A stretch of 64,000 nucleotides of DNA from Rhodocyclaceae bacterium (GTDB lineage Bacteria; Pseudomonadota; Gammaproteobacteria; Burkholderiales; Rhodocyclaceae), in NCBI GenBank assembly GCA_013791905.1, contig VMSX01000010.1:1-64000 (forward strand). Direction: 5' to 3'. A program made the translations under genes and the position numbers. Shown piece after piece: positions 14,631 to 60,275 of the stretch (its first letter is position 1; every line of letters starts with the position of its first letter). Under the pieces are notes generated by a model. The model made no database searches. It saw nothing but the letters and a program-made list of their open reading frames with translations, and had not been told where the DNA came from.

Positions 14631-15395
14631 TCAAATTGCATTGGCAAGCGCGCGCTGACTGCGCTCGGAGTAAAAGAAGTTGCGTACGAAGGGATGATCG
14701 AGTTGCATGACTTCGTCAAGCATGCCATAGGTGAGAATACGCCGCTCGGCCAGCACAGCGACGCGCGTCGTCAAGGCCGCCAGGGTATCGACGTCGTGCG
14801 TCACCAGCACGACCGTGAGGCCGAGTTCTTCGCCCAGCCGGCGGATCAGGCGCACAAAGCCGTCAGCGAGATCGGGATCGAGGCCGGCGGTCGGTTCATC
14901 GAGCAGCAGCAGTTCCGGTTCCAGCGCCAGCGCGCGCGCCAGGGCAACGCGCTTGACCATGCCGCCGGACAACTCGGCAGGCATCAACAGGGCATGGCGC
15001 GGGCGCAGCTCGACCATTTCGAGCTTGAGCATCACCAGGTCACGGATCGTGGTCGCGTCAAAGCATTTGAGTTCGCGCAGCGGGAAGGCGATGTTGTCGA
15101 AGACATTCAGTGCGGAAAACAATGCCCCCTGCTGGAACAGCACGCCAAAGCGCTGCCGCAGCGTACGCTCGCGCGCCGTGCCGCCACCGAACAAAGGCTC
15201 GCCGAACAGCCGGATGCTGCCCTCGGTTGGCGTCAGGAGGCCGATCATCTGCCGCAGCAGCGTCGTCTTGCCGCTGCCTGAGCCGCCCACCAGCGCCACC
15301 AGCTCGCCTCGCGCAATTTCGAGGTTCAGATGCCGGTGAATCCACGCATCGCCGAGGCGGGTGGACAGGTCGTTGATGGCAATGATGGAGTTCAT
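14631..15395 (-). CDS. MlaF-type ABC transporter ATPase
   Basis: The 254-residue ATPase has Walker A GGSGSGKTT, signature LSGGMVKRVALARALA, Walker B LLLLDEPTAGLDP and switch His VTHDVD. The M-x-K-R form of the signature and the C-terminal HPFVRNFFYSERSQRA are MlaF/Ttg2A-like. The ATG at 15395 is chosen over the frame extending to 15542, because the extra residues are encoded by the family B module. The start codon and GAAGG ribosome binding site sit inside the 3' arm of the family B stem at 15393-15425. The mini-frame ends by ATGA overlap with this start. Confidence 0.9.
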   Translation of the reverse strand: MNSIIAINDLSTRLGDAWIHRHLNLEIARGELVALVGGSGSGKTTLLRQMIGLLTPTEGSIRLFGEPLFGGGTARERTLRQRFGVLFQQGALFSALNVFDNIAFPLRELKCFDATTIRDLVMLKLEMVELRPRHALLMPAELSGGMVKRVALARALALEPELLLLDEPTAGLDPDLADGFVRLIRRLGEELGLTVVLVTHDVDTLAALTTRVAVLAERRILTYGMLDEVMQLDHPFVRNFFYSERSQRALANAI

Positions 15396-15487
15396 GCCTT
15401 CGCCGGGCCGCCCCAAGAAGGCATGCGCCCCCCCGTGGGGGGCAGCGAGCCGAATTGTTGGCAAATGAGGCGAGCGTGGGGGGCCAT
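15392..15487 (-). repeat. family B intercistronic module with 31-codon mini-frame (mlaE-mlaF junction)
   Basis: On the coding strand the module begins ATGGCCCCCCACGCTCGC five bases after the mlaE stop. It contains a C6/G6 hairpin and then a stem-loop whose loop is TTGGGGCGGCCCGGC (15402-15416) with 9-bp perfect arms at 15393-15401 and 15417-15425. The frame from that ATG (MAPHAR...SLPPTGG...WGGPAKA) has 31 residues, and its TGA overlaps the mlaF ATG as ATGA. The stem encloses the mlaF ribosome binding site and start codon. Similar modules are at 31365, 46009 and 55691. Confidence 0.85.
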
Positions 15488-15492
15488 AATTT

Positions 15493-57245: not shown

Positions 57246-57267
57246 GGGTTATTGGCCAAGGCGGGGG

Positions 57268-58143
57268 TCAAGACAGTTTATCCAGCGTACGCAGATAAGC
57301 GGCAAATTCAACCCCTACCTCGGGGTGACGCAGCGCGTATTCAACAGTGGCCTGCAAATAGCCCAGCTTGGAGCCACAGTCATAGCGCACCCCTTCATAG
57401 CGATAGGCCAGCACCTGCTGTTCGGAGAGCAGTGACGAGATGGCATCGGTCAATTGAATTTCACCTCCGGCGCCGGCGCGCACATTCTTGAGATGATGGA
57501 AGATGCGCGGCGTCAGGACATAGCGGCCAACCACGGCCAGCGTCGAAGGCGCTACATCCGGCTGGGGTTTTTCAACCATGGCGTTGATCCGCTCGACGCG
57601 CCCGGCGAGCGGCTGCGCAGCCACGATGCCATAGCTTGCGGTATCCGCGCGCGGCACATCCTGCACGCCCAGCACCGAACACCGATAGTAGTCGTAGGCA
57701 TCCACCATTTGCTTAATCACCGGCGTGCCGTTATCCAGCAGGTCGTCGGCCAGCAGCACGGCAAATGGCTCGTCACCGACGACCGGCTCGGCACATAGCA
57801 CGGCATGCCCCAAGCCCAGGGCCTCAGCCTGCCGCATGTAGATGCAGTTGATATTCCTCGGCAGCAGGTTTTGCACAAATTCCAGCAACTCGGTCTTGCC
57901 GCGCCGCTCCAGTTCGTTTTCCAGTTCGTAGGCCTTGTCGAAATGATCCTCGATGGCGCGTTTGGAACGACCGGTGACGAAGATCATGTCGGTAATGCCC
58001 GCCGCCACTGCTTCTTCCACGGCATACTGGATCAGCGGCTTATCGACGATCGGCAGCATCTCCTTGGGGCTCGCCTTGGTCGCCGGCAGGAAGCGCGTCC
58101 CCATGCCGGCGACAGGAAAGACGGCTTTCGTGACTTTCTTCAT
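57268..58143 (-). CDS. galU: UTP-glucose-1-phosphate uridylyltransferase
   Basis: The 291-residue protein has [39 protein letters not shown] and VMVEKPQPD-like region. It makes UDP-glucose for surface polysaccharides. The ATG overlaps the ligA stop (ATGA). Confidence 0.95.
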
Positions 58144-60275
58144 AGTTTCAGCAACTCCATGAATTTTGCTTCGTCGAGGATGGTAACGCCCAATTCCTGC
58201 GCCTTGTCGAGTTTGGAGCCCGCTTCTGCACCGGCCACGACATAGTGTGTTTTCTTCGACACCGAACCCGCCACCTTGCCGCCGCGCGCTTCGATCAATT
58301 CCTTGGCCGCCTCGCGCGTCAGGGTCGGTAGTGTACCGGTCAGCACAAAGGTCTTGCCGGCAATGGGTGAATTGGCCAAGATGTTCGGCGTGCCCTCTTC
58401 CCAGCGGATACCCGCCGCCCGCAACTGTTCGACCACCTCGACGTTATGCGGTTCGGCAAAAAACCGCACGATCGACGCCGCCACCACCGGACCGACATCC
58501 GGCACCTGTTGCAGATGCTCGGCATCGGCAGCCATCAGCGCATCGAGCCCACCGAAATAGCGCGCCAGATCCTTCGCCGTCGCCTCGCCGACATTGCGAA
58601 TGCCGAGTGCAAAGATGAAGCGTGCCAACGTAGACTTGCGGCTCTTTTCAATGGCTGCGAGCAGGTTGGCAGCGGATTTGTCCGCCATGCGTTCCAGATT
58701 GGCCAGCTTGAGGATGCCGAGCTTGTAGAGGTCGGCCGGCGTCTTGATGATGCCGTGATCCACCAGTTGATCGACCAGCTTGTCGCCCAACCCTTCAACG
58801 TCCATCGCCCGGCGCGAAGCGAAATGCAGCAAGGCCTGCTTGCGCTGCGCCGGGCAAAACAGGCCGCCGGTGCAGCGTGCAATCACCTCGTCCTCCGGCT
58901 TTTCCACCGCCGAGCCGCATACCGGACAGGCTTTGGGCATGCTGAATTTGCCGGCATGCGGCGGGCGCTTCTCCGGAACCACTGCCGCCACCTCGGGAAT
59001 CACATCGCCAGCCCGCCGCACGATCACCGTGTCACCGACCCGCACATCCTTGCGCCGCACTTCGTCCTCGTTGTGCAGCGTGGCATTGGTCACCGTGACG
59101 CCACCGACGAACACCGGGGCCAGCCGCGCCACCGGCGTGATGGCCCCGGTGCGACCGACCTGCACCTCGATGGCTTCGACGGTGGTAAGGGCTTCTTCGG
59201 CGGGAAACTTATGGGCGATGGCGAAGCGCGGCGCACGCGCCACAAAGCCAAGCTTGGCCTGATCGGCCAGGCGATCCACCTTGTAGACCACACCGTCAAT
59301 GTCGTAGGGCAACGCACGCCGCGCCGCGCCAATGCGTTCGTAATACTCAAGCAAACCGCCCGCCCCTTGCACTACAGCTCGTTCAACGGCCACTGGGAAA
59401 CCCCAGACAGCCAGCCGCTCCATCACTTCGCTGTGGCGGGCCGCTCCACCACCAAAAGTCGGCTCTGGCGAAACGGCGTTATTTTCAGCATGGGCTTCTG
59501 CCACACCATAGGCAAAGAAACGTAAGGGTCGTTTGGCCGTGATTTTTGGATCAAGCTGGCGCAGGCTGCCGGCGGCCGCATTGCGCGGATTGGCAAACTC
59601 TTTTTCGCCACGCGCGCGTTGCCGCTCATTAAGCGCAGCAAACTCCCGGCGCGGCATCAGCACCTCGCCGCGTACCTCGATGCGGGCCGGAACACTGACC
59701 TTTGTGGTCTCGGCCAGCCGCAGGGGAATGTTGCGCACGGTGCGCAGGTTATGCGTCACATCCTCGCCGGTGAAACCATCGCCGCGTGTCGCACCCTGCA
59801 CAAGCACGCCATTTTCATAAAGCAGGGTAACCGCCAGTCCATCATATTTTGGTTCACAGGCGTATTCGACGCTCGCCGTACCTAACCCCTCGCTGCAACG
59901 TCGGTCGAAAGCAGCAACTTCTGCACTGCTGAAAGCATTGTTAAGCGACAGCATCGGCACCGCGTGGGCCACTTGGCGAAAAGCGGCGAGAGGTGAACCA
60001 CCCACCCGCTGGGTCGGCGAATCGGGCGTTTGCAAGGTCGGGTGGGCCACCTCGATTTCCTGCAATTCCCTGAACAGCCGGTCATATTCTGCATCGGGAA
60101 TGGTCGGCGCATCCAGCACGTAATAGGCATGGTTATGGCGCTCGATCTCGCCACGCAGAAACGCCGCGCGTTCAATATCAGCCCCCCCCGTAAACACTGC
60201 TGCGCGGCGCTCTCCCCCCAGGGGGCCAAGAAACACTTGGGACGGCCCGGCGTGTTTCTTGTGACTATCCGGCAT
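58140..60275 (-). CDS. ligA: NAD-dependent DNA ligase with repeat-derived insertions
   Basis: The 711-residue protein carries the Ia, adenylation (Lys143 in EPKYDGLAV), OB, zinc finger (CPVCGSAV... FCP), HhH and BRCT domains of LigA. It seals nicks in replication. The proposed ATG at 60275 overlaps the zipA stop (TGATG). The first 35 residues ([16 protein letters not shown] and on) are encoded by a full inverted family B module. A GTG at 60197 would give a start close to the usual family position. A second insert near residue 270 comes from a family A copy. Confidence 0.93.
59455..59478 (+). repeat. family A repeat inside ligA, three mismatches
   Basis: The copy is read on the opposite strand as NAVSPEPTF between [10 protein letters not shown] and HSEVMERL. 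Relatives have about 11 fewer residues here, so this is an in-frame insertion in the adenylation-domain surface. Confidence 0.65.
60180..60261 (+). repeat. family B module inside the ligA 5' end, opposite orientation
   Basis: Arms CAAGAAACAC and GTGTTTCTTG (10 bp, perfect) flank TTGGGACGGCCCGGC at 60237-60251. Upstream in the same orientation are CCCCC-CA-GGGGG and the C-run that opens other modules. Unlike the junction copies it is inverted relative to the genes and is translated as part of LigA if the start is at 60275. Confidence 0.8.

Follow-up and report, generated by a model that had tools for sequence, protein, structure and literature searches.

Hairpin-ended repeats at gene boundaries of a Rhodocyclaceae bacterium: members of a large betaproteobacterial family of short mobile DNA repeats

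A 64,000-nt stretch of DNA from a Rhodocyclaceae bacterium (contig VMSX01000010.1 of assembly GCA_013791905.1; the window, to which coordinates given without a locus code refer) carries eight copies of a hairpin with a constant 15-nt tip and stem arms varying in sequence from site to site. All eight hairpins fall within a large betaproteobacterial repeat family whose members are short and mobile; the feature is real and large and probably belongs to an already known repeat family. The strongest new result is the coupling of copies to start codons, where a short open reading frame (ORF) running through the repeat, termed here the mini-ORF, ends at the start of the following gene. The favoured explanation, to which a probability of about 0.62 is assigned, is that these are short mobile repeats (~75–230 bp) without a mobility gene of their own, whose hairpin would be read by an enzyme and of which the operon-compatible copies would survive. 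Genomes are designated by G-codes, with G000 being the window's own genome, and loci whose sequence was read by L-codes.

An earlier note made from the window sequence had claimed eight hairpin sites with complementary arms, and all eight were confirmed at their positions. The core (the 15-mer of the tip) was exact at 15402, 27200, 31375 and 35368, carried one mismatch at 20506, 46029 and 60237 and two mismatches at 55698. Seven stems were perfect over 7–10 bp, as claimed, and the stem at 31375 had one C·A mismatch. When up to three mismatches were allowed, the window contained 18 matches to the 15-mer in comparison with 7.9 expected, a number reached in none of 100 shuffles.

Arm pairing was evaluated for 105 copies read from G000 and 31 from the congener G008. 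The mean number of Watson–Crick pairs in the first eight arm positions was 7.40 and 7.55, respectively, and fell to 3.57 and 4.11 with re-dealt right arms (the re-dealt value for G000 was obtained from 106 rows including one false row at 59318, the mean of those rows being 7.35). In a further set, the arm filter excluded 2 of 21 cores. An alignment of 38 copies (the eight from the window and L001–L030; 31 distinct) revealed 121 cells with a double change relative to 39.1 in shuffled alignments and 16–37 with slid partners, and 91.1% of the cells were paired in comparison with 63.8% and 35–51%, respectively. A one-sided (wobble) state was found in just 3 of 279 arm cells, and thus the arms change mostly as pairs. 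Among 300 distinct matches with at most one mismatch, 216 formed a hairpin (at least five of eight pairs), and the arm mismatches over these hairpins comprised 31 G·T, 47 A·C and 56 other combinations. With G·T mismatches no commoner than A·C, the core strand bears no mark of selection at the RNA level, and the favoured G-U wobble intermediates that mark structured cis-regulatory RNAs were not seen. A total of 59 distinct 7-nt left arms was present among 145 hairpins, with subfamilies being defined by the upstream sequence. The arms, described in the earlier note as unrelated between copies, indeed differ strongly between sites, but many copies share arms within subfamilies.

The constant 15 nt read TT-GGG-GCGG-CCC-GGC (TTGGGGCGGCCCGGC in the B-type consensus). 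Instead of the unpaired loop assumed in the earlier note, they form a mini-hairpin, in which a GGG/CCC helix is closed by GCGG, and DNA folding placed this small helix within the long stem in five of the eight window copies. The whole hairpin is most simply described as a free-sequence stem, an asymmetric bulge and the constant tip. The 208 hairpins with at least six of eight arm pairs contained 20 single core changes, 14 of them in the apical GCGG (positions 6–9), five at position 13 and one at position 15, with none in TT, GGG or CCC.

The family extends far beyond the window, and its arms are complementary, as established by the search of the genome and its relatives, with arms set against shuffled ones, which the earlier note had proposed as a check. 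In the 3.64-Mb G000 genome, 234 copies of the 15-mer were found at no more than one mismatch, with none for the reversed pattern. Across 18 genomes of the same genus, the number varied from 0 to 283, with 283 copies in G008, 153 in G015, 100 in G009 and 0–33 in the other 15. The exact 15-mer was present in at least one copy in 56 of 399 genomes of the order (a set including G000 and two congeners), with high counts in other families (e.g., 138, 116, 82, 58, 42, 41 and 37) and 0–2 occurrences of the reversed-pattern control per genome. The hairpin was formed at 11 of the 13 places read in other families of the order. The nearest relatives of a protein encoded beside one copy were found in Rhodocyclales/Sulfuritalea-like genomes. 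A copy from a viral contig used as the query gave plasmid matches in Acidovorax, Variovorax, Rhodoferax, Azoarcus and Paraburkholderia (42–77% of the query covered), with the arms read in two of them. In IMG/VR, whose viral contigs may contain host DNA, at least 120 stretches carried the 15-mer and, among the matches listed, 43 of 127 exact 15-mers had at least seven of eight arm pairs in comparison with 1.3% after re-dealing. As regards a phage origin, one copy used as the query gave no match in named phages.

Copies of the family lie at gene boundaries. Subfamily labels A–E come from visual inspection and from two pattern scripts that disagree on some copies, chiefly C and D, and therefore only the stop-codon count for A and the label-free start-codon counts are relied on. 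The A copies, the most numerous subfamily in the sample, numbered 74 by pattern in G000 and G008, and 69 had a located left end. For 52 of these 69, the left end lay within −45 to +5 of the stop of a same-strand ORF (at least 240 nt), whereas this was the case for 16% of random positions. All three A copies of the window follow a stop codon (20424, 27421 and 35512). The B and D copies were located at start codons.

The start-codon set comprised hairpin copies in which an ATG-started ORF begins 3–25 nt to the right of the core and the left C-run is preceded by an ATG; same-site copies in two species (two such pairs) were counted separately, and 12 genus and 4 outside copies with a right-hand ORF but no ATG before the C-run were left unscored (41 and 21 copies in total). 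For 25 of the 29 genus copies, the frame opened by the left ATG first met a stop within −6 to +7 of the gene ATG, and the other two frames gave one case each (2/58). Outside the genus, such stop–start contact was observed in 15 of 17 copies, with 0 and 1 cases in the other frames (1/34), which makes 3/92 for both sets together. Three of these 17 copies came from other genera of the family, two from other families and 12 from viral contigs with an unassigned host. The frame read through the tip varies, giving WGGPA in the genus and often LGAAR elsewhere, and the stop–start contact is kept. The distance from the left to the right ATG was 77–93 in 16 of the 17 outside copies (170 in the remaining one) and 77–134 in the 29 genus copies, indicating that the genus copies are often longer. 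The coupling is observed as a sequence pattern, and the mini-ORF would presumably be translated. An open frame runs across the element in L069, in L130 and in the zipA genes of G009 and G015. Such maintenance of an open frame in or next to genes is characteristic of coding palindromic repeats of the RU kind and of the Rickettsia palindromic elements, the latter reportedly described by Ogata et al. The B copy in zipA (L264, about 4391–4405; L271) is in frame and adds roughly 25–35 residues. Close pairs of copies were spaced by 84, 84, 84, 87, 113, 113, 120 and 167 bp. Tandem copies at 84–120 bp were noted in L078, L082, L085, L122, L019, L288 and L356, and in L082 a D copy is joined to a B copy with the same arms.

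Syntenic stretches of five congeners were compared, which gave 13 insertion sites with at least one relative lacking the element; the comparisons are at the species level, so some divergence is possible. The empty orthologous sites confirm that the elements are insertions, and the proposal of the earlier note that the structure is selected or regenerated on insertion was right. Its suggestion that one arm is native gene sequence was mostly wrong, as at 12 of the 13 sites the junction in the empty relatives contained neither arm (as an exact hexamer). At start-codon sites, the ribosome-binding-site-like right arm arrived with the element, and the empty sites show that, as a rule, the two arms came in together with it. 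For the infB–rbfA site, two of the four empty relatives do contain GAGGGC, though at a position within infB that is well upstream of the junction. At the mlaE–mlaF junction (15402), 14 of the 15 congeners read were empty, with the genes overlapping, abutting or nearly so, and G012 was filled. The arms differ between G000 and G012, and G008 lacks the element though it is closer to G000 (85% vs. 74% identity), which suggests two insertions at this junction.

A different geometry was found in zipA, where the element is present in G009 and G015 and missing from G000, G008 and G010. The right arm GCCGAC lies in GCCGACTTT, which is native in the empty G010 and not found in G000 and G008, likewise empty but more distant. 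In the filled genomes, GCCGACTTT stands on either side of the element, forming a 9-bp direct repeat, and the left arm is the reverse complement of the right arm. Direct repeats beginning at the right arm were also noted at three loci known from filled sites (9 bp in L082 and L173, 15 bp in L145). The idea of the earlier note that one arm is an inverted copy of the target is thus matched by the zipA geometry but not by the 12 sites without a native arm, and it holds at most for a minority. A second short motif, AAAAGTCGGCG or a near variant (reverse complement CGCCGACTTTT), recurs beside elements, in the right flanks of L007, L095, L114 and L118 and at the rbfA start in L263, L268 and L277; it resembles the target of zipA-type insertions.

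In six pairwise comparisons of shared copies (four sites, one with three species), 3 of 108 arm positions differed, and each of the three was one of the two outermost positions of the left arm. The flanks of these copies differed by 4–27% and the interior by 0–26%, and four of the comparisons showed the gain or loss of 15–22-nt segments. The arms therefore vary between sites and hardly within a site, and those of shared copies are either constrained in place or belong to young insertions.

The subfamilies have only their 3' end in common, the constant-tip hairpin on a free-sequence stem, with A copies after stop codons and B and D copies at start codons, where an in-frame mini-ORF runs from the left ATG to the gene's own ATG. 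In the favoured explanation, a mobility enzyme would read the hairpin as a single-strand DNA structure, recognizing the tip by sequence and the stem by pairing only, and so the stem would drift freely in an active lineage. A ribosome entering the element would terminate at the start of the next gene and could reinitiate there, and copies that leave the operon readable would survive for this reason.

Several results weigh against this explanation. No mobility enzyme was found for the repeats in the Y1/RAYT and reverse transcriptase searches. Y1 genes occurred in 11 of 15 high-copy and 12 of 16 low- or zero-copy genomes of the order (one of the 12 being below the family cut-off), and none was found in two high-copy congeners, whose assemblies are both incomplete. 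Reverse transcriptase was present in 9 of 17 high-copy and 8 of 22 low-copy genomes, though a divergent enzyme is possible. Two of the five covariation measures were weak, with 24 pair types relative to 24.8 in shuffled alignments and nine pairs with a double change relative to 7.7 (22 of 500 shuffles were as high), and of the 279 arm cells 32 were unpaired, the outermost pair accounting for 18 of these. The fold of the whole element was not unusually stable in six of the eight window copies. Among 15 one-mismatch places of G024, known from a listing alone, two changes fell in TT and two in GGG. No uniform target duplication was detected in 46 start-codon copies anchored on both ATGs, in which a slight excess beyond the ATG itself was limited to positions −1 to −3 and −5. 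Moreover, the near-constant arms of shared copies suggest constraint in place, beyond free drift.

Candidate mobilisers and element classes were considered in turn. Within the genus and among 31 genomes of the order, Y1/RAYT transposases showed no association with copy number and were rejected as mobilisers. As regards a retroelement moved by an element-specific reverse transcriptase, the enzyme was not universal in high-copy genomes (9 of 17), and a divergent one may be involved. Direct repeats of at least 9 bp were found for 19 of 144 copies relative to 3.4 expected, with varying lengths and several representing tandem copies; the fixed-length target site duplication at both ends that marks a classical miniature inverted-repeat transposable element of a DDE transposase was not seen.

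The hairpin ends of REP elements and of IS200/IS605 are single-strand hairpins with a bulge and resemble the hairpin described here, and Y1/RAYT genes were found in 5 of 19 genus genomes (G000, G008, G010, G012 and G003). Movement of these hairpins by a RAYT-type Y1 transposase in a REP/RAYT system is nevertheless highly improbable, as Y1 genes do not track copy number and no Y1 match was obtained in G024, G386 and G173 (16–48 copies, 98–100% complete). The core at no more than one mismatch was near the Y1 gene at one of eight genus Y1 loci within the stretches examined, and the GTAG/GTGG or CGTC tag occurred beside the stem in 0–6 of 216 hairpins per tag and side, with about 4.2 expected by chance; both the tag and an association with Y1 genes, features of REP/RAYT elements, are missing. 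The model of the earlier note, in which the target sequence supplies one arm and is copied in inverted form to give the other, accommodates zipA, the direct repeats of L082, L145 and L173 (9–15 bp) that start exactly at the right arm and the strong variation of arms between sites with hardly any between orthologous copies. It is very unlikely in view of the 12 empty junctions without either arm, the identical arms of C-type copies at unrelated sites and the C copy at L260, which has a 9-bp repeat outside the arm. Matching arms could also be maintained without selection or an enzyme by template-switch (quasi-palindrome) correction during replication, in which a mutation in one arm is copied to the other. 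The two-sided stem changes (3 of 279 arm cells one-sided) and the missing G·T preference fit such a process, but it leaves the constant tip, the high copy number and the insertions unexplained, and imperfect stems persist (77 of 1160 genus cells non-Watson–Crick), which makes it rather unlikely.

Two further readings concern the genes next to the copies. A cis-regulatory RNA, in which the right arm would be a ribosome binding site hidden by the left arm and controlling translation of the next gene, is suggested by the frequent GGAGG in the right arm of B and D copies, by the ATG often lying 6–12 nt after the core and by the strongly kept stop–start contact. This is quite unlikely, since A copies, which have the same tip and covarying arms, were at start codons in 15 of 75 cases as against 19% for random positions, no G·U excess was found on the core strand and no Rfam match was obtained in the window at gathering scores. 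It is also conceivable, although doubtful, that the element homes to operon start codons with a translational relay of its own and that its stem is rewritten as a unit. A native ATG would then start the element-encoded mini-ORF, whose stop would overlap a second ATG before the gene, and the stem would be rewritten by a structure-reading enzyme or, at some sites such as zipA, copied from the target.

The positions and neighbours of the window copies are collected in Table 1.

Table 1. Hairpin-ended repeats of the window, with their cores and neighbouring genes
Feature	Position	Strand	Core	Remarks
B-type element, mini-ORF MAPHARLICQQFGSLPPTGGRMPSWGGPAKA followed by a stop	15392..15487	-		between mlaE-like permease and ABC ATPase genes
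Constant 15-nt hairpin tip	15402..15416	-		arms 15417-15425 and 15393-15401
A-type element	20425..20531	+		directly after the stop of the polyphosphate kinase ORF (17752-20424); left limit approximate
Core of the 20425..20531 A-type element	20506-20520	+		sequence TTGGGACGGCCCGGC
A-type composite repeat	27190..27420	-	27200-27214	after the stop of the GGDEF ORF (27421-28950); limits approximate
B-type element, mini-ORF MAPHAHIRSLPPTGGRMSSWGGPART followed by a stop	31365..31445	-	31375-31389	between hsp90-like and uracil-DNA-glycosylase-like genes
A-type element	35358..35505	-	35368-35382	after the stop of the kinase/HDOD ORF (35512-37956); limits approximate
B-type element	46016..46101	-	46029-46043	between infB and rbfA
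B-type element	55691..55771	-	55698-55712 (2 changes)	between Sua5/YciO-like and M50 peptidase-like genes
C-type element	60181..60261	+	60237-60251	within the N-terminal part of the listed ligA ORF (58140-60437), antisense; left limit approximate

In the first of these elements, the TGA of the mini-ORF overlaps the ATG of the ATPase gene (15395). The site of the composite repeat at 27190..27420 is empty in G009, that of the element at 31365..31445, which has one arm mismatch, in G008 and G009, and that of the element at 35358..35505 in G008, G009, G015 and G012. The infB–rbfA copy is present at the same site with the same arms in G008, and the site is empty in G009, G010, G015 and G012. The copy at 55691..55771 is common to G000, G008 and G009, with an empty site in G015. 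One tip change in the G000 core at 55698-55712 introduces a stop into the mini-ORF, and the orthologous copies of G008 and G009 keep the exact 15-mer. The C-type copy has the arms CAAGAAACAC/GTGTTTCTTG and is shared with G009, with empty sites in G008, G010 and G015.

The G008 orthologue of the 20506 copy (L258:16396-16500) has the same arms and a tip split by a palindromic-looking sequence of ~80 nt, with the appearance of another element entering the hairpin tip. A 21–22-nt hairpin (TGAAATCACCCGAAGCGGTGA) was noted within the first-hairpin loop of some B copies, namely in L260 at the 46029 and 55698 sites and in L021, L068, L086, L096 and L113. As it is present in G008 but not in G000 at two shared sites, hairpin loops seem to be swapped or invaded.

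The 15-mer was not found in the literature searched and, as far as that literature shows, the hairpin structure and the start-codon coupling have not been described. With the constant tip, the free stem and the position at gene boundaries, a little-studied betaproteobacterial repeat becomes a defined object. The coupling rule is testable and held for the genus and again for a second set of copies, drawn from outside it. Provided that the coupling is real, an inserted relay peptide is encoded at many operon junctions in such genomes, and the short ORFs annotated at these places are not genes in the ordinary sense. The hairpin reaches 283 copies per genome and is spread over several families of the order, and its mobiliser is a concrete target.

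These repeats probably represent an expansion of the Beta-proteobacterial Repeat Element (BRE), to which they are likened by size, tandem spacing and host range and not by the Bordetella sequence. The BRE is described as a GC-rich repeat of ~90 bp (about 75–91), with at most 29 copies per genome, often in tandem, mostly intergenic, sometimes within genes and variable in copy number (Hot et al. 2011, PMC3110155). Its hosts are given as Bordetella, Comamonadaceae and Azoarcus, one copy spans 3605317-3605401 of B. pertussis Tohama I, and the authors call for further investigation before suggesting a function (PMC3110155). The B-type units fit this size and tandem habit, with a spacing of 84–87 bp in four of eight close pairs; the copies likewise occur in Comamonadaceae and Rhodocyclaceae, mostly between genes, with some of them inside genes (zipA, L069 and L130, in frame). 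Unlike the BRE as described, the family reaches 283 copies rather than 29 and includes several subfamilies having just the terminal hairpin in common. The word "hairpin" is absent from the main text of the BRE paper, and the section of that account covered here mentions no hairpin, covariation, start-codon position or mini-ORF, all of which are present in the family (PMC3110155).

In the parts of the literature considered, other hairpin repeats have some of these features. As with the REP repeats carrying GTAG/CGTC (PMC3733652), many interspersed hairpins occur per genome and their stems change in a complementary manner; unlike them, the family shows no terminal tetranucleotide tag and no Y1 association and has a start/stop codon preference and a constant tip. 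The enterobacterial repeats RU-1, RU-2, RU-3, RUP and NEMIS, which carry open reading frames (Delihas 2007, PMC2759123), are probably the nearest in kind, to judge from this description. In common with these and with the Rickettsia palindromic elements (PMC2635572), the repeats are short, palindromic and mobile, with an open frame tolerated in or near genes. By their description, the RU, RUP and NEMIS repeats are fused to ORFs, whereas here a separate mini-ORF ends on the ATG of the next gene and the stem covaries around a constant tip.

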